A stretch of DNA of 46,108 bases, from positions 1 to 46,108 of the IMG/VR virus record IMGVR_UViG_3300005580_000007. The stretch is one strand, 5' to 3'. Positions 35,059 through 45,478 of this stretch are shown piece by piece. The DNA is from a virus. A model generated the notes under the pieces. The model was not told the DNA's origin and made no database searches. It worked only from the letters and a program-made list of their open reading frames with translations. Made by a program: the position numbers and the translations under genes. Position 1 is the stretch's first letter, and each line of letters begins with the position of its first letter.

Positions 35059-36063
35059 TTAAAGGGGGAAGGGATTAGAAAATTTTTTAAAAATTGGTTC
35101 AAAGGCATTAGCAGTCAACTGATTCCATCTATACTCTTCATGTATCTTAGTTGCTTGAGAGTAGTAATAACCAGAGTAAGCATTAAAGTTTAAAGACACT
35201 TCTCTCATAAGCTCAAGTAGATGTTGACGGTTTGGCTCAAACACTTTGCCTTCATGTGGAAATGGCCAGGGGGAATCTATTAGTTCAGATTTTAATTTTA
35301 ATGGACCTAAATATTTTTTATAATGTGCCCAAGAAGATGTACAAATTGTTGGCATTCCTGTTGCTAGTGCTTGAAGAGGAATAAATCCAAATCCTTCTCC
35401 ATAACTAGGATAAACTAAAACATCGTGATTGTGATAAAGATTAATTAGTTCTTCTTCATTTAAATTATCAGTTACAACATTTACATTGCTATACATATTT
35501 TGAGGAAGCCCTATTATATTTTTATCCATATAGTTATTATAGACTCTAGTGGTATTTGCTCCGTAAGCCTTTATAGTTAAAGAATATTTAGGATCATTTC
35601 CAAACAATGATAGGAATGCATCTAATACCATCTGCCCAGCTTTTCTTGGAGCGGGCTCTCCAATATGCAAAAATTTAATTACACCGTCATCAATTCTTTT
35701 TTTAGGAGACCAAGCAGCAGAAACACCATGTGGAAAAACTTTAATATCAGAATATCCATTTGATTCAAAAACATTTGCACACCAGTCTGAGGTTGTCCAT
35801 ATTTCATCTACAAGATCTAAATTTGATTTCCATGAAGAAGGAATTACAGTTGACTCCCATGGGGTATATGATATTTGATATTGTTTTCTATGCATTTTAA
35901 AATGATCTGGTTGAGAAAAATTTAGCTGTACTGGTGCTTTTGAATTTTGAAAAGGAACTGTATGTCCTAGGTTAGTTAATGATTTAACTATGTTTAATCC
36001 AGCATAACCGTAGCCATTATTATTTTTCATATTAATAGTTGGCGTCGAAAACGATATTTGCAT
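35059..36063 (-). CDS. Glycosyltransferase, GT4-like (GT-B fold)
   Basis: 334 residues. N-terminal acceptor domain with GYGYAGLNIVKSL near 17, then FPHGV at 110-114. Donor domain: IKFLHIGEPAPRKAGQMVLD near 129, VLVYPSYGEGFGFIPLQALA with ATGMPTI following. In the family EX7E motif the first Glu is E223, but the second is Q231. Start from ATG 36063 with AGGAAGGAT before it. Could glycosylate tail proteins, phage DNA or host polysaccharide; sequence does not decide. Confidence 0.85.
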   Translation of the reverse strand: MQISFSTPTINMKNNNGYGYAGLNIVKSLTNLGHTVPFQNSKAPVQLNFSQPDHFKMHRKQYQISYTPWESTVIPSSWKSNLDLVDEIWTTSDWCANVFESNGYSDIKVFPHGVSAAWSPKKRIDDGVIKFLHIGEPAPRKAGQMVLDAFLSLFGNDPKYSLTIKAYGANTTRVYNNYMDKNIIGLPQNMYSNVNVVTDNLNEEELINLYHNHDVLVYPSYGEGFGFIPLQALATGMPTICTSSWAHYKKYLGPLKLKSELIDSPWPFPHEGKVFEPNRQHLLELMREVSLNFNAYSGYYYSQATKIHEEYRWNQLTANAFEPIFKKFSNPFPL

Positions 36064-36076
36064 AAATCCTTCCTAG

Positions 36077-36121
36077 TTGACTGGCTTGACACTACTTACT
36101 AGTAGATGTTATTATTATAGT
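36077..36121. promoter_or_regulatory. Divergent promoter region: endolysin (+) and glycosyltransferase/reductase (-)
   Basis: Plus strand: TTGACA at 36086-36091, 18-nt spacer, TATTAT at 36110-36115, upstream of the endolysin. Minus strand: TATAAT at 36119-36114 in AACTATAAT. The two overlap. A second TTGACT at 36077-36082 lies in CTAGTTGACTG, an 11-mer that recurs at 40868 and, slightly varied and inverted, at 43550. Confidence 0.55.
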
Positions 36122-36150
36122 TCGTTATCTCTCTAAAGGAGGAAATGCCA

Positions 36151-36702
36151 ATGGAGAATATAAAACAAAAGATGAGCGATTTTGCTCATAGTATGACTGT
36201 AATAGTAATGATAACATTATTTCTATTTACAAACAATACTGTGATCCCCGCTCAAGCTTTAAAAGTACAACCAAAGACAGAAGTACAACTTAAGAAAGAA
36301 ACCTTAGAAAAGTACAGCAATACTGTTTACAAGCCTTCGGAAAAGCTTTCAGACATTGAATTGAAAGAACTACTGGCAGCAGTAGGTTTTGAAGGAGAAG
36401 CCCTTAGAACGGCTTGGGCCATTGCTAATAGGGAGTCCAGCGGACGCCCACTAGCATACAATGGCAACAGGAATACTGGAGACAGTTCCTATGGAATTTT
36501 TCAGATCAACATGTTGGGAAACCTTGGTGTTGCTCGTAAAGAAAAATTTAACCTGAGATCAAATGTACTATTATTTGATCCAGTAATAAATGCAGAGATA
36601 ACGTATTATATGACCAAGGGCGGTACTGATTGGTCAGCTTGGAAGGGTTTAACCCCAAGAGCAAAGGAATTTTATTTGAAGTTCCCAACTACACAGAAGT
36701 AG
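36151..36702 (+). CDS. Exported lysozyme-like (transglycosylase-fold) endolysin
   Basis: 183 residues from ATG 36151, 8 nt after AAAGGAGGA; ATG 36145 is too close to it. Residues about 14-36 are a signal or signal-anchor segment (MTVIVMITLFLFTNN) ending in a possible AQA cleavage site. The catalytic domain carries AWAIANRESSGRP with catalytic-type E95, then NTGDSSYGIFQINM and INAEITYYMTKGGTDWSAW. This is the lysozyme-like fold of SLT and resuscitation-factor type enzymes. Cuts peptidoglycan. The signal suggests export without a holin, though a holin is encoded nearby. Confidence 0.85.
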   Translation: MENIKQKMSDFAHSMTVIVMITLFLFTNNTVIPAQALKVQPKTEVQLKKETLEKYSNTVYKPSEKLSDIELKELLAAVGFEGEALRTAWAIANRESSGRPLAYNGNRNTGDSSYGIFQINMLGNLGVARKEKFNLRSNVLLFDPVINAEITYYMTKGGTDWSAWKGLTPRAKEFYLKFPTTQK

Positions 36703-36708
36703 GAGAAA

Positions 36709-36921
36709 ATGCGTAGGATACAGTATGTATCTAAATACATAGCACTTTCTGAAGAAGGCCTTGTACCTAGACTGGAATGCCCACTAGATCAAGGTCTTCT
36801 TCTTTCTAATCAAACGGATTTAGATGAAGTATATGTATATTGCCTTTCTTGCGAATATAAAAAATTCATAGGCTTTGGCTTTTACGATGAAATAATTAAG
36901 GCGGTAAAAAAATATGGATAG
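36709..36921 (+). CDS. Small Cys-containing protein
   Basis: 70 residues, 3 nt after the endolysin stop with GGAGAAA before ATG. It has ECPLDQG and, near residue 47, CLSC, so three Cys in C-x22-C-x2-C order, a partial zinc-ribbon arrangement (a fourth ligand is not obvious). The C-terminus is basic. Coupled to the next gene by 8-nt overlap. Function unknown. Confidence 0.65.
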   Translation: MRRIQYVSKYIALSEEGLVPRLECPLDQGLLLSNQTDLDEVYVYCLSCEYKKFIGFGFYDEIIKAVKKYG

Positions 36922-37120
36922 CAAAGATGAACAATCAATAGAAGATAACCTACCAATGGTTAACTATATAATGCTTCATAGAATATACGATATGCTTACT
37001 GTTATTGCTAATAAATTAGTTGGTGGCGATGAAATTAATAAAATGGTAGAATATCATGAAGCAGGATATCTTTTAGGCCCAGCACCTTCTTACAATGCTG
37101 GATTAGATGAAAAGGAATAA
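36914..37120 (+). CDS. Small protein of unknown function
   Basis: 68 residues, beginning inside the stop of the preceding gene. Central helix MVNYIMLHRIYDMLTVIANKLV is amphipathic rather than membrane-spanning. The tail is acidic with YHEAGYLLGPAPSYNAG. Not recognised. Confidence 0.6.
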   Translation: MDSKDEQSIEDNLPMVNYIMLHRIYDMLTVIANKLVGGDEINKMVEYHEAGYLLGPAPSYNAGLDEKE

Positions 37121-37122
37121 AA

Positions 37123-37311
37123 ATGGATAAAGAAAAAATTGTACTTGCATTACTAGAAAAAATGAATAATGATACTAGATCTGCTGGATTGCAAAATGGA
37201 ATAGACCTTATGCAAATAGAGCAGCAAATTATTGCAAATGCTGACGGCTTGCATTATCTTTTGGGAAGTCTTTACGATTTTATTGTAGAGAAAGAATTTT
37301 TTAAAGGCTAG
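37123..37311 (+). CDS. Small helical protein of unknown function
   Basis: 62 residues, starting 2 nt after the previous stop. Helix-rich with EKMNNDTRSAGLQNGIDLMQ; ends FIVEKEFFKG. Last gene of this plus-strand group; stem-loops and a terminator follow. Not recognised. Confidence 0.6.
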   Translation: MDKEKIVLALLEKMNNDTRSAGLQNGIDLMQIEQQIIANADGLHYLLGSLYDFIVEKEFFKG

Positions 37312-37319
37312 ATATAAAG

Positions 37320-37415
37320 TAAAATTGTGTTAGTTGAAGTATTTATTGCTCCTAACACATTGCACTATTTTTAGTGCATAACCCCAATTGGATCCGCCTC
37401 CAATTGGGGTTTTTA
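37320..37415 (+). ncRNA. Three consecutive stem-loops ending in a terminator
   Basis: SL1: TGTGTTAG (37326-37333) with CTAACACA (37352-37359). SL2: TGCACTA (37361-37367) with TAGTGCA (37372-37378), loop TTTT. SL3: CCCCAATTGG (37382-37391) with CCAATTGGGG (37400-37409), followed by TTTTT. All three stems are perfect. This may be a tandem terminator or the 3' part of a small structured RNA. No known RNA family recognised. Confidence 0.4.
37382..37415 (+). terminator. Strong Rho-independent terminator
   Basis: A 10-bp perfect stem with an 8-nt loop followed by five T, ending the endolysin gene group. Confidence 0.88.
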
Positions 37416-37427
37416 TATTTAAAATGG

Positions 37428-37436
37428 TGGTATAAT
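37428..37436 (+). promoter_or_regulatory. Extended -10 promoter for a leaderless mRNA (site 1)
   Basis: TGGTATAAT with exactly 6 nt to ATG 37443. Transcription is expected to start at or next to the A of the ATG, and no ribosome binding site is visible. Sits just after the strong terminator. Confidence 0.65.
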
Positions 37437-37442
37437 TATTAC

Positions 37443-37589
37443 ATGGGTGGAGCACATCATTTTGCAAAGACAATGCGTAGTCCTTATTTTACAATGGATG
37501 AGTACCAGGATAGCTGCCCCTGTAATAAAATTGTTTGTAGACTTGAAAGATTTTTAAAGTCTTTTTTATCATCTAAAAAGAAAAAATAA
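37443..37589 (+). CDS. Small Cys/Lys-rich protein
   Basis: 48 residues from ATG 37443, chosen because a -10 element lies 6 nt upstream; a longer in-frame ATG at 37374 lies within the terminator region and is unlikely. Sequence has MGGAHHFAKTM, SCPCNKIVC, and a lysine tail. HH and C-x-C-x4-C could bind a metal. Unknown function. Confidence 0.55.
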   Translation: MGGAHHFAKTMRSPYFTMDEYQDSCPCNKIVCRLERFLKSFLSSKKKK

Positions 37590-37590
37590 A

Positions 37591-38256
37591 ATGAAACATA
37601 CTGGCACAATTAATATAATTGAAAATTTTATATCACCACAAACATGTAAATATTTAATAGAAAGCTATAAAAATTCTTTTTTTGAAAATGAAAATACAAA
37701 TGACAATGTTTTAGCAGGACCCAGCTTAGGCTTAGAACATGCATGGACGGTAAGTCCAACCAACACTTTTCCATTTACAGATAAAAAAGACAAAGAAAAA
37801 ACAATATCTTCTGATATATTTACTCACGTTTTGCAAAGTATGAAATACTATGTTTCGAAAGAGTCTGGTAACGAGGTTGACCTTAGAACTGTTTTTCTAA
37901 GCAAAATGGTTACTGGAGCAAAATTGCAAGAGCATTATGATAATTATGATCCAGATGGGACACCATTTTATCCTTACGGGACAAACGCAGATGTTTTAAA
38001 CAAAATAGGGTTCAAATCAGATTTTTCAGCTTTGCTTTATTTAAACGATGATTATACTGGTGGAGAAATTGAATTTACACAGCACAGTTTAAAGTTAAAA
38101 CCTAAGCCAGGAACATTTATTTTTTTTAGAGGTGATATGGATGCGAAACATCTAGTACATAAAGTTGAATCTGGAGAAAGAATTAACTTAGTAACATTTT
38201 TTTGGGAAACAGAATACAGAAAAAAATATTTTGAAGAATTGCAGAAACAAAATTAA
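37591..38256 (+). CDS. Fe(II)/2-oxoglutarate-dependent oxygenase, plus-strand copy G
   Basis: 221 residues, starting 1 nt after the previous stop. Ligands H115-x-D117 and H187, R197 for 2OG; YLNDDYTGGEIEFTQHSLKL and KPGTFIFFRGDMDAKHLV are the family's signature strands. Overlaps the sulfotransferase-like gene by 26 nt, suggesting their products act together. Confidence 0.9.
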   Translation: MKHTGTINIIENFISPQTCKYLIESYKNSFFENENTNDNVLAGPSLGLEHAWTVSPTNTFPFTDKKDKEKTISSDIFTHVLQSMKYYVSKESGNEVDLRTVFLSKMVTGAKLQEHYDNYDPDGTPFYPYGTNADVLNKIGFKSDFSALLYLNDDYTGGEIEFTQHSLKLKPKPGTFIFFRGDMDAKHLVHKVESGERINLVTFFWETEYRKKYFEELQKQN

Positions 38257-38971
38257 ATTTAATTCTTTTTACTATTTGCATATTCCAAAAACTGGAGGAA
38301 GATGGCTTACCTCAAAAATGGAAGACGTATTTGATTATTTTGATTATAATAAAATTAAAATTATTAACAATAAAAACGAATATAAAAATAACTCCTTTGG
38401 CGAAAGAAATGGTGCCGATGCAACAAAATATTATGAGCACCAGGGCTGGCATTCAGAAATAGACAAAGATACATTTATACTTACGGTTTTTAGAGATCCA
38501 ATTAAACAACTATGTAGCTTGTGGACCAACTCAAACGAAAACTTTATCTATGAAAATGGATTAAAAAAGGAAATATTTCTAAAAGACATGTCAAGCAAGT
38601 CACCGTATTTAAACAATCAATCTGTAAGTTTGTCTAATTCTACAAAACTTAAAAATTTTGGTATAGGTTTTAAAACTTTAGATATAGATTTTTTAATAAA
38701 TAGAATTGATAGAATAAATAAAATAATTTTACTTCAAGAAAATGAAATAGATTACAATAAAGAAATTAAAAATTTATTAAGCTTAATGCAGATTGATTTA
38801 CCTACTAAAATAGAAAAATGGCAGAATAATGTTGCCAGCTATAAAAATAAAAATCCTATGTCTAAAAGCCTTTTTAATTCTTTATCCGACGAGGAAAAAC
38901 AATATCTAGGCGAATTACAGTATCTTGACATGGCCCTATATAATAGAATTATTGAAAAAGGGTTAAAATAA
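38231..38971 (+). CDS. Sulfotransferase-like protein
   Basis: 246 residues. HIPKTGGRW at residues 17-25 is the 5'-phosphosulfate-binding loop of the carbohydrate sulfotransferase superfamily, and VFRDPIKQLCSLW with R88 and S96 is the 3'-phosphate-binding motif. PAPS-dependent transfer of sulfate to a glycan or protein is predicted. The C-terminal half is helical and Lys/Asn-rich. The start overlaps the oxygenase end. It could act on tail glycans or host surface sugars. Confidence 0.78.
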   Translation: MKNCRNKIKFNSFYYLHIPKTGGRWLTSKMEDVFDYFDYNKIKIINNKNEYKNNSFGERNGADATKYYEHQGWHSEIDKDTFILTVFRDPIKQLCSLWTNSNENFIYENGLKKEIFLKDMSSKSPYLNNQSVSLSNSTKLKNFGIGFKTLDIDFLINRIDRINKIILLQENEIDYNKEIKNLLSLMQIDLPTKIEKWQNNVASYKNKNPMSKSLFNSLSDEEKQYLGELQYLDMALYNRIIEKGLK

Positions 38972-38995
38972 ATTTGGTCTATATGAAAGCAAAGG

Positions 38996-39004
38996 TGGTA
39001 TAAT
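38996..39004 (+). promoter_or_regulatory. Extended -10 promoter for a leaderless mRNA (site 2)
   Basis: TGGTATAAT with exactly 6 nt to ATG 39011. The 11-mer GGTGGTATAAT is the same as at 37426-37436. No ribosome binding site precedes the gene. Confidence 0.68.
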
Positions 39005-39010
39005 TAACAT

Positions 39011-39769
39011 ATGTTCTACGACAACCCAAATATTGAAAAAGTGGCTCCTAAGATTTTTGTATACAGAAATTTTGTACCCAAAGAAATGGTTGATGCCGTT
39101 AATGAAGAAATGTCTAAGTATGGACTTGAAGATTTTATTCTAGATGACCATGCTATTGATTGGTATGCGGATAAAACTGGACCCAACGTTCTTGCCCTAT
39201 ACCCAGTATGGGATTTAATATCTGATCTTTTACAGCCTGAATTTTGTGTCCACCCAAACCTATCCATGCAGGTTATGAAGCCTGGAGACACAATGTTTGT
39301 TCATTCTGATTCTCCTGGAAGAGATATGGAAGAAGATTTAACTCAACAGGATCGATGGAATACTTGCTGCATTATCGAGTATGGTGTTTGTGTTTATTTT
39401 GGAGAATTTACTGGCGGAGAAGTTTTTTATCCAGTAAAAGGACTAGAAGTTGCAGTAAATCCAGGAGATTTGGTAATTCACGGAACTCTTGCAGAATACG
39501 AGCATGGAGTACGAGAAGTAAAATCAGGACTAAGATATTGTTACTCTAATTTTTCATTGTACACAAATGAAAACCCTGGAACTTTTCCTGTTAGAGGATC
39601 TGAAGAGGAGTTATCTAGAAGATCGACTCCTATGACTTGGATGACCCCACTTGGAGACATTAACCCTATTACTGGTGTTGCTTTAACTAGTGAAAAATAT
39701 AAATCTTTATATGGTGAAGATGCACCTAAAAAAATAGACACTAATTGGAAAAAAGAAACCTCTAATTAA
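39011..39769 (+). CDS. Fe(II)/2-oxoglutarate-dependent oxygenase, plus-strand copy H
   Basis: 252 residues. Ligands H98-x-D100 and H165, R175 for 2OG; FTGGEVFYPVKGLEVAVNPG and AEYEHGVREVKSGLRY give the barrel. The C-terminal 60 residues (SRRSTPMTWMTPLGDINPIT) are beyond the barrel. Own leaderless-type promoter, so regulated apart from the late oxygenases. Confidence 0.88.
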   Translation: MFYDNPNIEKVAPKIFVYRNFVPKEMVDAVNEEMSKYGLEDFILDDHAIDWYADKTGPNVLALYPVWDLISDLLQPEFCVHPNLSMQVMKPGDTMFVHSDSPGRDMEEDLTQQDRWNTCCIIEYGVCVYFGEFTGGEVFYPVKGLEVAVNPGDLVIHGTLAEYEHGVREVKSGLRYCYSNFSLYTNENPGTFPVRGSEEELSRRSTPMTWMTPLGDINPITGVALTSEKYKSLYGEDAPKKIDTNWKKETSN

Positions 39770-39856
39770 TTTTATAATCTAATTAATATTGTTTATATTC
39801 ATCATTATATTCCTAGTGAAGTGAAAAAAGTGCGGCGGCGGTAGAAGAGCCCATAT

Positions 39857-40147
39857 TTAGAAATCAATAACCCTTTTGCCATATACTTTATTATATTTCT
39901 CATCCTGTGTAAATTCGTACAGAATATCCATTAACATTTTACAGCTAGAATGGCTTTCTAAGTACCATATGTCACAATACCCCTCAGATGCATTCAAACA
40001 TTTGCCTAAATAGCCTTCTAGCCGTTCTACGGCCCATTCTAGGGCGGCGGTGGCAAGCAAGGTATCCGCCATATAGTAGTTACATTCCCTATATCGTCTA
40101 TCTTTAAATGATTTAGCTATATCGTGAACAAGGTTAGAATTGATCAT
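39857..40147 (-). CDS. Small protein of unknown function
   Basis: 96 residues. Helical; contains Cys at C22, C50, C58 and C69 and YYMADTLLATAALEWAVERL. Starts inside the last codons of the small membrane protein gene upstream. Not recognised. Confidence 0.6.
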   Translation of the reverse strand: MINSNLVHDIAKSFKDRRYRECNYYMADTLLATAALEWAVERLEGYLGKCLNASEGYCDIWYLESHSSCKMLMDILYEFTQDEKYNKVYGKRVIDF

Positions 40148-40286
40148 CTTCGTCTATATCTTCAGATAGATCAAAATCAAAGCTATCTCCAAGTCCCGCC
40201 ATTTTTATTAACTCATATAACGCATATCCAGAAGCTATTGCTGTTGCCAGCAATAGTATCCCTGTTGATACTTTATTCTTCATCAT
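40134..40286 (-). CDS. Small single-span membrane protein
   Basis: 50 residues from ATG 40286, overlapping the stop of the JmjC/cupin gene and the start of the 39857-40147 gene. Basic N-terminus, one hydrophobic span (TGILLLATAIASGYALYEL), then a very acidic tail (DLSEDIDEDDQF). Predicted Nin-Cout. Function unknown. Confidence 0.6.
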   Translation of the reverse strand: MMKNKVSTGILLLATAIASGYALYELIKMAGLGDSFDFDLSEDIDEDDQF

Positions 40287-40851
40287 TTCCCCCACTATTT
40301 TCGTTTAGATATTGAAATATATATGTTGCTCGTGGCTCTAGAATTGAAACCTCATGAAAAACACCTGTTGGTATATAAACGACATCTCCTGGGTTTAACA
40401 CATGGATTAAATATGGTTTGGCTTCTTTTGATTCAGAAAATCTATATTCTACTTTTCCAAGCACCTGCCATGAAATTACATCATGATCATCTGCATGCAT
40501 CCAATAATCTGCTTCGTTAGATACTAGATTTAATAATACTTTACCACCAACGGCTTCTTTTCCAATTATTGAATTTAATGTTTCAACTAAATAATCTGAC
40601 TCTGGTATTAGCCCATTGTGGTCATAATGTATAGTTCCGTCTTTAGATACAACAGATGCCAAAGCATTAAAGCATATTAAATCCATTTGATTATATATCG
40701 ATATACTTTTTTTATTATTGTTGTATGTATAATCTATATTTTTTAAAACTCTTTCCCATGATGGGACAGTTGGATAAATATTTTCTAATATTAATGGTTT
40801 ACAGTCTAGTACAGCTTTTGTAAAAAGATCTTTTAACTCTGTTTCATTCAT
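40273..40851 (-). CDS. JmjC/cupin-type Fe(II) oxygenase
   Basis: 192 residues. HADDHDVISWQVLGKVEYRF near 119 and GDVVYIPTGVFHEV near 156 are the two conserved strands of cupin_4/JmjC-like hydroxylases: H119-x-D121 and H166 are the likely iron ligands. Relatives hydroxylate ribosomal proteins, histones or other protein side chains, so it may complement the P4H-like enzymes. Part of a minus-strand operon with the carbamoyltransferase and the SGNH hydrolase, separated by two micro-ORFs. Confidence 0.78.
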   Translation of the reverse strand: MNETELKDLFTKAVLDCKPLILENIYPTVPSWERVLKNIDYTYNNNKKSISIYNQMDLICFNALASVVSKDGTIHYDHNGLIPESDYLVETLNSIIGKEAVGGKVLLNLVSNEADYWMHADDHDVISWQVLGKVEYRFSESKEAKPYLIHVLNPGDVVYIPTGVFHEVSILEPRATYIFQYLNENSGGNDEE

Positions 40852-40867
40852 TCATATGCTCCATATT

Positions 40868-40981
40868 CTAGTTGACTGAGATTAATATTGATAGTACAAC
40901 AAATGCTGCAATCAATGAGATAGAAATAAATTTTACCTTTTTCTTTCTTGGCCATTCGTTTGGCACCTTTACATTATTCAT
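40868..40981 (-). CDS. Micro-ORF membrane peptide
   Basis: 37 residues: MNNVKVPNEWPRKKKVKFIS then a hydrophobic span IAAFVVLSILISVN. AGGAGT sits 6 nt before ATG. One basic-anchored transmembrane helix. Function unknown. Confidence 0.55.
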   Translation of the reverse strand: MNNVKVPNEWPRKKKVKFISISLIAAFVVLSILISVN

Positions 40982-41001
40982 ATTTTACTCCTTTGTATAT
41001 T

Positions 41002-41079
41002 TTAGCCTAATATTTGATACATGATACCAAGGATAAAAGTAATTACTGCTACAACCGCTACGGCATATAAAGTTTTCAT
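41002..41079 (-). CDS. Micro-ORF hydrophobic peptide
   Basis: 25 residues, MKTLYAVAVVAVITFILGIM plus YQILG. GAGAGG precedes ATG, which overlaps nothing but lies 1 nt after the carbamoyltransferase stop. Nearly the whole peptide is a membrane helix, as in phage membrane-targeting micropeptides. Function unknown. Confidence 0.5.
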   Translation of the reverse strand: MKTLYAVAVVAVITFILGIMYQILG

Positions 41080-41080
41080 T

Positions 41081-42505
41081 TTATCCTCTCAAAATTTTAA
41101 AGTTATATTCCTTTTCCCACTTTTCAATATCCAAAGCATCGTTTAATAAAGGTTGACCTTTTATATTTAAACTTGTGTTTAATAATATTGGAACGCCAGT
41201 AATAGTATACCATTTTTCTAAAAGAGAATATAGCCCCTTATGTTGATTTTTATTAACTGTTTGTACTCTGGACGTCCCGTCCTTATGTACAACAGATGGA
41301 ATTTTTTCTGGCTGTAAACACTTAACCGTATATTGCATATATGGACTTTCAAAATTCATATCGAACCATTTGGAGGCATGCTCTTCCATGACTACTGGAG
41401 CAAATGGTCTAAATAGCTCTCTTTGCTTAATTGCATTAACTTTATCTTTAATAGATGGATCTCTTGGGTCTGCTAATATAGATCTATTACCTAAAGCCCT
41501 TGGGCCATATTCCGCTCTTCCTGTTGCTACCGCCGCAATTCCATCTTTTGACAATTTGTTAATAATTGCTTTTACTGGATACTCTCCGCCTAGATCATGG
41601 CCCAGGTATGGGCTTTTCCAATTTATATGGCTTTCGTATAGTGCACAAGCTGCACCCAAAGATGATCCAGCATCTCCTGGGTTGGGCATAATCCACACGC
41701 TATCAAAAATATTCCAGAGCATTGTATTTGCAGAAGAATTAAGAGCACAACCTCCCATAAAGACAAGATTTTTTTTTCCAGTAGTTGAGTATGCCAAGTG
41801 CATAAATTCGTTTAGCCTTTGTTCATATACAAACTGTACTGCTGCAGCTATATCAAACTTGTTTTGTTCTGTTACTTCTATATCCCAATCATATATGCCT
41901 TTATGAAAATTATATTTTTGTTTATCATACTTTGGAAAATATAAATCTACTTTTTTATAATATTTTTTCCAATCTCCATAAGCTGCCATACCCATCATAA
42001 TGTATTCTTCTTGATTTGGTTTTAATCCAATTAATTGAGTAAAAGCTGAATAAAATAATCCAAAACTTACTGGGTAATTTTGTTTATATTTTAATTTAAT
42101 TTTATTTTTTTCTCCGACCCAGATTGTTGAAGTGTTCCATTCCCCAATTGCATCAAGAACAACTACAGCAGCGTCATCATATTTACTGGTGTAGTATCCC
42201 GCCGAAGCATGCGAATAGTGATGTCCAAAATACTTTACTGGTAGATCCATTGGTATATTTGGAAGCCAATCAGATGCACCACCTTTTAACAACAGTCTAC
42301 TTTTTTTAAGTAATGGTTTTTCATAGTACGCTATGTGTGTTGGTGTTCCATAGTTTAGTGCATCTAGATATATGTCTCTGTTGTTGTACCAATCATTTTT
42401 TTTCTTACTGTATCTTTCTGCGTGCCCCGCAAAAAGGATCTCTCCATCTTTTATTAGTGAAATCGAAGCGTCGTGAGATGTTTCGTTAATTCCTAAAATT
42501 ATCAT
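41081..42505 (-). CDS. Carbamoyltransferase (NodU/CmcH/TobZ family)
   Basis: 474 residues. Two domains: Kae1-like half with ILGINETSHDASISLIKDGE at 3-22, FGHHYSHASAGYYTS, VVVLDAIGEWNTSTIW and EEYIMMGMAAYGDW; C-terminal YrdC-like half with AEYGPRALGNRSILADPRDP near 345. Transfers carbamoyl from carbamoyl phosphate (via carbamoyl-AMP) to a sugar hydroxyl in this family. Related to host O-carbamoylation and to phage-borne copies. Coupled to the SGNH hydrolase by a 4-nt overlap. Sugar target unknown. Confidence 0.88.
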   Translation of the reverse strand: MIILGINETSHDASISLIKDGEILFAGHAERYSKKKNDWYNNRDIYLDALNYGTPTHIAYYEKPLLKKSRLLLKGGASDWLPNIPMDLPVKYFGHHYSHASAGYYTSKYDDAAVVVLDAIGEWNTSTIWVGEKNKIKLKYKQNYPVSFGLFYSAFTQLIGLKPNQEEYIMMGMAAYGDWKKYYKKVDLYFPKYDKQKYNFHKGIYDWDIEVTEQNKFDIAAAVQFVYEQRLNEFMHLAYSTTGKKNLVFMGGCALNSSANTMLWNIFDSVWIMPNPGDAGSSLGAACALYESHINWKSPYLGHDLGGEYPVKAIINKLSKDGIAAVATGRAEYGPRALGNRSILADPRDPSIKDKVNAIKQRELFRPFAPVVMEEHASKWFDMNFESPYMQYTVKCLQPEKIPSVVHKDGTSRVQTVNKNQHKGLYSLLEKWYTITGVPILLNTSLNIKGQPLLNDALDIEKWEKEYNFKILRG

Positions 42506-43287
42506 TGGTCTTTTTTAAAAGCATTATACATAAGATCTGCATAAAAATTATGAAATGAAGTTCCTGGATGACAATCATCTGCTGCCCATAAAGATTTTTC
42601 AGGAGTATTTGTAACCTTATCATATTCAAAAACACTATTAAGCATATCTTTTGAAGAATAGTCACGGTATGAACTAAAATTGTTTAAGCTATAAACTTTT
42701 TGCATAGAAGCAGGTAATGGATACCCTTCTGGTATTTTTTGTTTAGGCTCTCCCGATTTTCCTTGCTCAGTCCATAAAGGCCTTAGCATTTTTTTGCCTT
42801 CATAGTTCCAAATATGTCTTACAGGGTTTCCAATTTTTGCATCTATAGATTTTACCCAAGAAAATGAGTAAAGTTTTATATTATTTGATTTGCAGTACTG
42901 CTCTAAATATAGATACATGTTAAATATGTAAGGATACATAAATTTATCGTAAACATGTCGTTGTTCTCTGTGAAATTCTGTTGTAACAAAAAATACAAGA
43001 TCTGGATTTCCGTAATTATGGCAATATTTAAAAAATTGATCAATCGATTCTGTTGTTGAGCTTCCAGAAATGCCTACGTTAAAATACCCACTAGTTGGCT
43101 CTTCTTGAGATATCCTTGAATATAGCTTATAACACCAAGTGTCTTTTTTATCCAGCCCGTCGCCTGCCGCAAATGAGTCACCTATAAAAAGTATGTGCTT
43201 ACCCTGATGATTTTCTTTAAATGGATCGCACCTGTAGTCAAACTCGTTGTCAGAGTCTCTTAAGCCAAAAGTAGGATTTGTATCCAT
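42502..43287 (-). CDS. SGNH/GDSL hydrolase-like protein
   Basis: 261 residues. GDS at 36-38 within ILFIGDSFAAGDGLDKKDTW provides the nucleophile serine S38; NVGISGSSTTE is block II; DDCHPG with D237 and H240 ends the fold. Alpha/beta hydrolase of the SGNH class, able to remove or transfer acyl groups on sugars. Next to carbamoyltransferase, so it probably tunes the same glycan. No signal peptide, so it acts in the cytoplasm. Confidence 0.8.
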   Translation of the reverse strand: MDTNPTFGLRDSDNEFDYRCDPFKENHQGKHILFIGDSFAAGDGLDKKDTWCYKLYSRISQEEPTSGYFNVGISGSSTTESIDQFFKYCHNYGNPDLVFFVTTEFHREQRHVYDKFMYPYIFNMYLYLEQYCKSNNIKLYSFSWVKSIDAKIGNPVRHIWNYEGKKMLRPLWTEQGKSGEPKQKIPEGYPLPASMQKVYSLNNFSSYRDYSSKDMLNSVFEYDKVTNTPEKSLWAADDCHPGTSFHNFYADLMYNAFKKDQ

Positions 43288-43865: not shown

Positions 43866-43881
43866 TGTGACCCTTATCACA
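43866..43881. promoter_or_regulatory. CRP/GlxR-type palindrome 1
   Basis: TGTGACCCTTATCACA is a perfect TGTGA-N6-TCACA operator. It starts 64 nt before the TGTCAG element at 43930. Confidence 0.7.
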
Positions 43882-43929
43882 TAACTATTTTTAGAATTGT
43901 CCCTAATGTCCGAATTGCGACTAGAAATT

Positions 43930-43951
43930 TGTCAGACCCCCGTGATAGTCT
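43930..43951 (+). promoter_or_regulatory. TGTCAG-N10-TAGTCT promoter-like element (early, copy 1)
   Basis: TGTCAG followed by 10 nt and TAGTCT, the most divergent -10 of the set. Same spacing from its palindrome as copy 3. Confidence 0.45.
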
Positions 43952-43996: not shown

Positions 43997-44143
43997 ATGA
44001 GTAACTCAATGTTTGAAAGAGCGAGAGGGTTCGCTACTGTATCCGATTACCCTAAAGGTCTAATGAACCTGTGTCCATGCGGTCAGGTAGTCTTAGCACC
44101 AGCCCTATACCATGAAAGGTGTGAGGCAACTCACACCGCATAG
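43997..44143 (+). CDS. Small early protein with CPC and Cys/His residues
   Basis: 48 residues, AAAGGAG 7 nt upstream of ATG. Contains LCPCGQVV and later YHERCEATH, so C-x-C plus H/C could form a small zinc site. Its 3' end contains palindrome 2, so coding and regulatory sequence overlap. Unknown function. Confidence 0.55.
   Translation: MSNSMFERARGFATVSDYPKGLMNLCPCGQVVLAPALYHERCEATHTA
44120..44135. promoter_or_regulatory. CRP/GlxR-type palindrome 2
   Basis: TGTGAGGCAACTCACA; the flanks extend it to GGTGTGA-N6-TCACACC, a 7-bp perfect half-site. It starts 54 nt before the TGTCAG element at 44174 and lies within the end of the upstream coding sequence. Confidence 0.68.
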
Positions 44144-44173
44144 GCCACACGCTACGGCGTGTCGGCTTGATAA

Positions 44174-44195
44174 TGTCAGCCAACTAGGCTACAAT
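44174..44195 (+). promoter_or_regulatory. TGTCAG-N10-TACAAT promoter-like element (early, copy 2)
   Basis: TGTCAG, 10 nt, TACAATTCCA; a weak -35 TTGATA also lies 17 nt before TACAAT. The leader AACCAACTAACGAAAG follows and is shared with copy 4. Confidence 0.65.
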
Positions 44196-44704: not shown

Positions 44705-44817
44705 TGACTAGAGCACTAACTACACTAGTACAATTAGCCCTTGCAGTACCCGCCCTATACATGGGGCGCATAGTATGGCATGAGTTTGTTATCGAGATGA
44801 AGGAGTTATTTAATTGA
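44704..44817 (+). CDS. Small early hydrophobic protein
   Basis: 37 residues, MTRALTTLVQLALAVPALYM then a polar end. One membrane or signal-like helix. Its TGA overlaps the TTG start of the next gene. Confidence 0.5.
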   Translation: MTRALTTLVQLALAVPALYMGRIVWHEFVIEMKELFN

Positions 44818-45026
44818 GTATGACACAATTCGAAAGAGACCTAACTATAAAAGAGAGCTTTATAGATTTACTTAATGAGATTTATCCCGAGGTAAAGATT
44901 GGCTACTCTACCTTTACTCCCGCCGAGATCTTGGAGTGTTGCGACCCTATCGCCTTTAGTATAGGCGTTATAGAGCATGAGGACTACATGCTAGAGCGTG
45001 GCGAGCTAGATGATGAAGAGATGTAA
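44814..45026 (+). CDS. Small early protein
   Basis: 70 residues from TTG 44814, 8 nt after GGAG; ATG 44820 is an alternative but too far from that site. Acidic, with FTPAEILECCDPIAFSIGVI. Unknown function; last gene before the DnaA-box region. Confidence 0.6.
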   Translation: MSMTQFERDLTIKESFIDLLNEIYPEVKIGYSTFTPAEILECCDPIAFSIGVIEHEDYMLERGELDDEEM

Positions 45027-45053
45027 ATCACACTAGCCTAGCGGCGTGTCGCC

Positions 45054-45082
45054 TTGACAGGGGCGGCATCTGCCCCTATCTG
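45054..45082 (+). promoter_or_regulatory. TTGACA -35 with palindromic 17-nt spacer
   Basis: TTGACA (45054-45059), a 17-nt spacer and TATCTG (45077-45082). AGGGGC (45059-45064) and GCCCCT (45072-45077) make the spacer a hairpin/operator. The -10 is poor. Confidence 0.35.
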
Positions 45083-45166
45083 TGTGGGGGCTGTGGATAA
45101 CTTACGACAGGCTGTGGATAACCCTGAAAATTTGTGGACAGCCTGTGTACGACACGCCCGAGATCT

Positions 45167-45182
45167 TGTGACTTTTATCACA
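45167..45182. promoter_or_regulatory. CRP/GlxR-type palindrome 3
   Basis: TGTGACTTTTATCACA, perfect TGTGA-N6-TCACA, differing from palindrome 1 at two positions only. It starts exactly 64 nt before the TGTCAG element at 45231. Confidence 0.7.
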
Positions 45183-45230: not shown

Positions 45231-45252
45231 TGTCAGTCCGTTCGTGTATAAT
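45231..45252 (+). promoter_or_regulatory. TGTCAG-N10-TATAAT promoter-like element (early, copy 3)
   Basis: TGTCAG, 10 nt, TATAATTCCA; the leader then reads AACCAAACGAAAGG. Confidence 0.7.
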
Positions 45253-45283: not shown

Positions 45284-45478
45284 ATGTCAGCAAATGTCTA
45301 TACAATCGAAAGCCTACTTGTAGGAAAACTCTATCGCTCAAAAACTTTAACGGGCGAGATTATCTCAGCAGAAAAACACCCTGCACCAGTATGGTACGAA
45401 AACGCAGAGGCGTATTTAGTCGAGGTGCGTAATCATAACGGTGGCTATGCTCACCGAACCGTTGCCGTCAATAACTAA
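45284..45478 (+). CDS. Small early protein
   Basis: 64 residues from ATG 45284 (earlier in-frame ATG/GTG lies in the promoter). Beta-rich: SLLVGKLYRSKTLTGEIISA, ending GGYAHRTVAVNN; ribosome site CGAAAGGCGG. No motif recognised. Confidence 0.65.
   Translation: MSANVYTIESLLVGKLYRSKTLTGEIISAEKHPAPVWYENAEAYLVEVRNHNGGYAHRTVAVNN

Follow-up and report, generated by a model that had tools for sequence, protein, structure and literature searches.

The DnaA-box cluster of this virus is probably the upstream control region of an early promoter at 45231–45252, with host DnaA and a host CRP-type protein as its predicted readers. The window, meaning the whole stretch of DNA that was analysed, is a 46-kb linear virus record, in which the cluster occupies part of a 258-bp non-coding stretch that follows a 70-aa ORF (stop codon at 45026) and precedes an ATG at 45285. 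The relevant features are listed below in sequence order.

43866–43951, plus strand: third promoter unit, with a CRP palindrome at 43866–43881, TGTCAG at 43930 and a weak -10 (TAGTCT) at 43946; no DnaA box
44120–44195, plus strand: second promoter unit, with a CRP palindrome at 44120–44135, GGCGTGTCG at 44156 and TTGATA-N17-TACAAT; no DnaA box
44814–45026, plus strand: small ORF of 70 aa from the ORF list, stop 16 bp before the module; no match in a Pfam search
45043–45091, plus strand: left arm, comprising hairpin 1 (GGCGTGTCG-CC-TTGACA) and GC-rich hairpin 2, with stem co-variation
45043–45051, plus strand: left copy of the inverted repeat, GGCGTGTCG, 9 bp
45092–45100, plus strand: DnaA box 1, exact TGTGGATAA; 78.5 bp from the CRP centre, against about 46 bp for the family slot
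45113–45121, plus strand: DnaA box 2, exact TGTGGATAA; 57.5 bp from the CRP centre, against about 25 bp for the family slot
45133–45141, plus strand: DnaA box 3, degenerate TGTGGACAG with two mismatches
45150–45158, plus strand: right copy of the inverted repeat, CGACACGCC, 9 bp
45167–45182, no strand assigned: CRP/GlxR-type palindrome TGTGACTTTTATCACA (TGTGA-N6-TCACA), centre 72.5 bp before the -10 hexamer
45231–45252, plus strand: early promoter TGTCAG-N10-TATAAT; similar layout at 43930, 44174 and 45481 and in relatives
45285–45478, plus strand: opening gene of the downstream unit, encoding 64 aa; its product has 240 relatives among viral contigs

The first-pass annotation had described three boxes, two perfect and one near match, bracketed by a 9-bp inverted repeat beside a CRP-type palindrome in a GC-rich setting, and all of these elements were recovered. 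The box starts lie 21 and 20 bp apart, the repeat copies flank them, the palindrome adjoins them, and the GC content of 45043–45158 is 0.578 compared with 0.366 window-wide. The third box (45133) is supported by homology, since the close relatives L232 and L235 carry an exact TGTGGATAA at that position. The cluster is above chance. In comparison with 300 dinucleotide shuffles, the window holds three exact boxes where 0.53 are expected, and an exact pair no more than 50 bp apart arose in none of the shuffles (analytic estimate about 3e-4). TGTGA-N6-TCACA (43866, 44120, 45167) and GGCGTGTCG on either strand (44156, 45043, 45150) each occur three times against an expectation of 0.04. Boxes with one mismatch allowed show no whole-window excess (16 versus 14.5 expected), so what stands out is that exact sites cluster.

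The TGTCAG-N10-TAYAAT early promoter is repeated on the plus strand at 44174, 45231 and 45481, with a leader of the AACGAAAG type after it. At two of these three promoters, TGTCAG, which is similar to an inverted TTGACA, takes the place of a clear -35. A simple sigma-70 scan returned promoter-like sites no more numerous than in shuffles. Between the ribonucleotide reductase (RNR) gene and the early region, positions 35059–43287 carry glycosyltransferase-like, carbamoyltransferase (Pfam PF02543/PF16861), GDSL-lipase-like and lysozyme-like genes.

Dozens of IMG/VR contigs from relatives of this phage carry the same composite, at one to three early promoters per genome, among loci gathered by two pattern scans and a protein search. 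Its conserved order runs from the GGCGTGTCG-NN-TTGACA hairpin through a GC-rich hairpin, a box, TTACG, a second box and CCCTGAAATT to TGTGA-N6-TCACA, CGACACGCC, the TGTCAG-N10-TATAAT promoter and a leader with a terminal AACGAAAGG. Genomes with two or three copies also occur, the copies being separated by approximately 1.1–2.5 kb. GGCGTGTCG itself occurs one to nine times per related genome, nearly always inside one segment of a few kilobases; the outliers are one copy each in G001 and G018. Across 20 related records, with this early segment delimited by GGCGTGTCG and not by boxes, exact boxes are 12-fold denser inside it (66 in 170 kb) than elsewhere (63 in 2011 kb).

Within this conserved layout, the boxes are optional among relatives. 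Upstream of homologues of the downstream gene, 53 of 65 distinct regions contain the palindrome but only 19 contain an exact box, and left arms not picked by boxes have an exact box downstream in 33 of 80 clusters. In 11 of these 80 clusters, a second GGCGTGTCG occupies the first box slot. The 21-bp box pair is found, in one or two copies each, in 8 of 20 long related records. Because most early promoters lack boxes, DnaA is not essential to the TGTCAG-N10-TATAAT promoter type. Mini forms in L352, L260 and L258, consisting of only GGCGTGTCG and CGACACGCC about 5–14 bp apart around TTGACA, suggest that the long module grew from a simple hairpin. A mobile element, with the repeat as its terminal inverted repeat and multiple copies, was also considered and is disfavoured, as the copies stay between a stop codon and a promoter. 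Among cultured phages, direct similarity searches gave no match for the right end of the window, the downstream protein (45285–45478) or a canonical element. The element itself yielded only three 36-bp Lactococcus phage matches (E 0.1), which were taken as chance.

Spacing within the module follows definite rules. The TGTGA-N6-TCACA site lies upstream of the promoter on a preferred helical face: the distance from palindrome centre to -10 peaks at 42.5, 52.5, 62.5 and 72.5 bp, the last being that of the window copy, with a Rayleigh p of about 1e-16 over 89 clusters that share ancestry. One group of sites, at 57.5 bp, is off this 10-bp series. DnaA boxes also occur at a reproducible distance from the promoter elements. 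Among 180 CRP-site-plus-promoter units, loci chosen without reference to boxes, 69 have an exact box within 150 bp upstream, compared with none for the reversed 9-mer. Box offsets from the CRP centre are mostly near 16, 25 and 46 bp and end before 92 bp. The two exact boxes of the window are 78.5 and 57.5 bp away and the degenerate one 37.5 bp, a CRP–box distance about 32 bp beyond the commonest slots and close to three helical turns. Boxes at the same slots occur as RR, FF or RF. Such free orientation favours a protein that binds double-stranded DNA and speaks against the boxes acting as RNA. Of the alternative proposal of the first-pass annotation, a DnaA titration/regulatory locus, the regulatory part fits these results, the module occurring one to three times per genome directly upstream of early promoters with box positions fixed relative to the CRP site and promoter.

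The left arm probably acts as RNA. In a comparison of 27 distinct left arms, the partner of GTGTCG-NN-TT in the first stem varies, and many of the pairs are G-U. As the MAFFT alignment of the left arms was not structure-aware, an arm-swap test was adopted: an arm folds with its own 3' arm at -15.1 kcal/mol versus -10.5 kcal/mol with a swapped one, a cost of about 4.7 kcal/mol, and none of 2000 permutations was as good. For the window element as a whole, folding is likewise better than in its shuffles (z -2.8), and left arms commonly begin directly 3' of stop codons. The left arm thus probably forms an RNA structure at the 3' end of the upstream mRNA, and its hairpins may possibly form a terminator lacking a U run; a terminator scan found none with a T run at the element. 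Searches of known RNA families returned nothing relevant, with one far sub-threshold microRNA match, and a tRNA search returned none. The co-varying stems rich in G-U pairs and their placement just after stop codons would also suit a module that is mainly an RNA element at mRNA 3' ends, with incidental boxes. We regard this as highly improbable, given that the boxes lie outside the hairpins, flip orientation and hold their distance to the CRP site and promoter.

Several features point to the phage's relatives and host. The portal protein is 60% identical to those of Stanwilliamsviridae Streptomyces phages, and gene order around the portal, RNR, glycosyltransferase and early small genes resembles that of StarPlatinum and LukeCage. 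However, StarPlatinum has neither TGTGA-N6-TCACA nor GGCGTGTCG in its first 50 kb, which holds one repeated-early-gene copy. Since the viral contigs with the 240 relatives of the downstream protein reach about 120 kb, the complete genome is probably 105–120 kb long and the window one part of it. WhiB is encoded in 20 of 21 phage records and, together with the Streptomyces-phage portal and StarPlatinum-like gene order, indicates that the host is very probably an actinobacterium. A portal search of bacterial genomes gave a weak result of only two MAG contigs, one Cytophagaceae-binned (81%) and one Actinomycetota-binned, with a 53% portal relative. The latter led to a putative host order of actinobacteria with streamlined genomes of 1.2–2.2 Mb. 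All 31 genomes of this putative order encode DnaA, and 30 of them have a Crp-type HTH above the cut-off. At the dnaA loci of the order, TTATCCACA makes up 74 of the 105 sites that fit T[TG]NTCCACA, and the phage boxes equal this dnaA-locus consensus. The box form in high-GC actinobacteria, TTGTCCACA, differs from this TTATCCACA. Neither a phage-coded DnaA domain IV (PF08299) nor a phage-coded Crp-type HTH (PF13545) was recognisable in the 21 phage records, some of which may be incomplete.

The first-pass annotation had called the arrangement typical of DnaA-dependent origins and named an origin using host DnaA as one possibility. At such an origin, host DnaA would bind the boxes, open the DNA and load a DnaB-type helicase. 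This reading agrees with the match between the exact boxes and the consensus of the likely host's dnaA region, with the location of the cluster in the early region, and with the genes for a DnaB-like helicase, primase, SSB and DnaE, and no annotated initiator, in the distant relative StarPlatinum. The fit is nevertheless poor, and we consider an origin here unlikely. The 21-bp pair is missing from 12 of the 20 long relatives and sometimes occurs twice in others, behaviour not expected of an indispensable origin, and boxes of this kind are mostly directly upstream of promoters. No AT-rich unwinding region adjoins the module, the local minimum 50-mer having 32% GC, a value equalled or beaten by a third of the window. 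GC skew, proposed as a check, placed the module at no extremum in the near-complete relatives G007, G008 and G017, the extrema lying elsewhere, but skew in these genomes follows gene orientation and is thus uninformative about an origin. The view that such a cluster would be unusual for a lytic siphovirus is also doubtful, as tandem exact boxes 15–29 bp apart occur in at least 120 viral DNA stretches; the reversed-9-mer control, a finished scan, gave 82. Environmental viral contigs commonly contain tandem exact boxes, whose spacing peaks at 21–22 bp among the matches listed, and several unrelated families seem to be represented.

A box pair spaced by 12 bp, outside the window and present in about nine of the 20 related records, looks more origin-like and would be the better origin candidate. 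Where mapped, it is intergenic at the convergent end of the early operon, with an AT-rich setting in several cases; it is also terminator-like in G006, G007, G008 and G017. One such locus, at 74353–74373 of G008 (L321; record coordinates), has exact boxes 11–12 bp apart in a partly AT-rich intergenic position. Similar loci occur in G001, G003, G006, G007, G009, G012, G013, G017 and G018, in several genomes beside CTCCACTT repeats.

Two further explanations concern what the boxes bind. As decoys, repeated boxes on a multiplying phage genome would draw DnaA off the host origin. In accord with this, records have 2–13 exact boxes each, concentrated in the early segment. Boxes are few per genome, however, and titration needs no fixed spacing to a CRP site and promoter, making a decoy role rather improbable. 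It is also unlikely, though slightly less so, that the box-like 9-mers are read by another protein, e.g., a phage regulator that also recognises GGCGTGTCG. This repeat adjoins many early promoters, and its presence in the first box slot of many relatives, including modules not selected by boxes, suggests that box and repeat may be two interchangeable sites for something else. On the other side, the 9-mer is identical to the consensus DnaA box of the dnaA locus in the putative host and is found in either orientation, and no such regulator was identified.

Known systems share parts of the probable control region. In E. coli, class I promoters have their CRP-type sites at 10-bp steps. The module resembles class I sites of E. 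coli CRP and actinobacterial GlxR/CRP in having TGTGA-N6-TCACA in steps of about 10 bp upstream of the promoter; it differs in residing on a phage, often with DnaA boxes, in that activation is predicted only, and in absolute positions shifted by about 2–3 bp if the -10 starts at -12. Clustered exact DnaA boxes are also found at datA, other DnaA-box clusters and plasmid origins, but the module has no unwinding region and no adjoining iteron or replication gene, and it exists in several promoter-tied copies. Host DnaA acts at the replication-region promoters of phage lambda (pR, pO/ori-lambda) (PMC3985674). Both cases place host DnaA at a phage promoter region, its role in the module being predicted from the boxes. 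Lambda promoters serve ori-lambda and have their sites downstream, whereas the module has exact boxes upstream, at fixed offsets from a CRP-type site, and is found at several early promoters.

As a control region, the module would operate in three layers. The GGCGTGTCG-NN-TTGACA sequence would open a double RNA hairpin at the 3' end of the preceding gene, probably ending or protecting the upstream transcript. Two or three DnaA boxes would be bindable by host DnaA, and a host CRP/GlxR-type regulator would bind TGTGA-N6-TCACA, which sits on a defined helix face with respect to the promoter. With both host proteins, DnaA and CRP, at fixed spacing, early transcription would then probably be activated or tuned according to host state; their binding and the sign of this regulation are predictions. 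A more specific version, in which this large lineage of freshwater actinobacterial phages wires its early promoters to DnaA as a measure of replication state and to a CRP-type protein as a measure of metabolic state through a stereospecific complex, is put forward tentatively as a possibility.

In the literature on DnaA, CRP/GlxR and this phage family, we found no description of such a module on a phage, and none of early-gene control in phages of abundant, hard-to-grow freshwater actinobacteria. Reading the cluster as a control region accounts for its DnaA boxes without an origin, and a module with exact spacing and host-type sites offers a testable link between phage early expression and the replication and metabolic state of the host. 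If the two-sensor wiring is true, early gene expression in these freshwater actinobacterial phages would be a combined readout of host condition.
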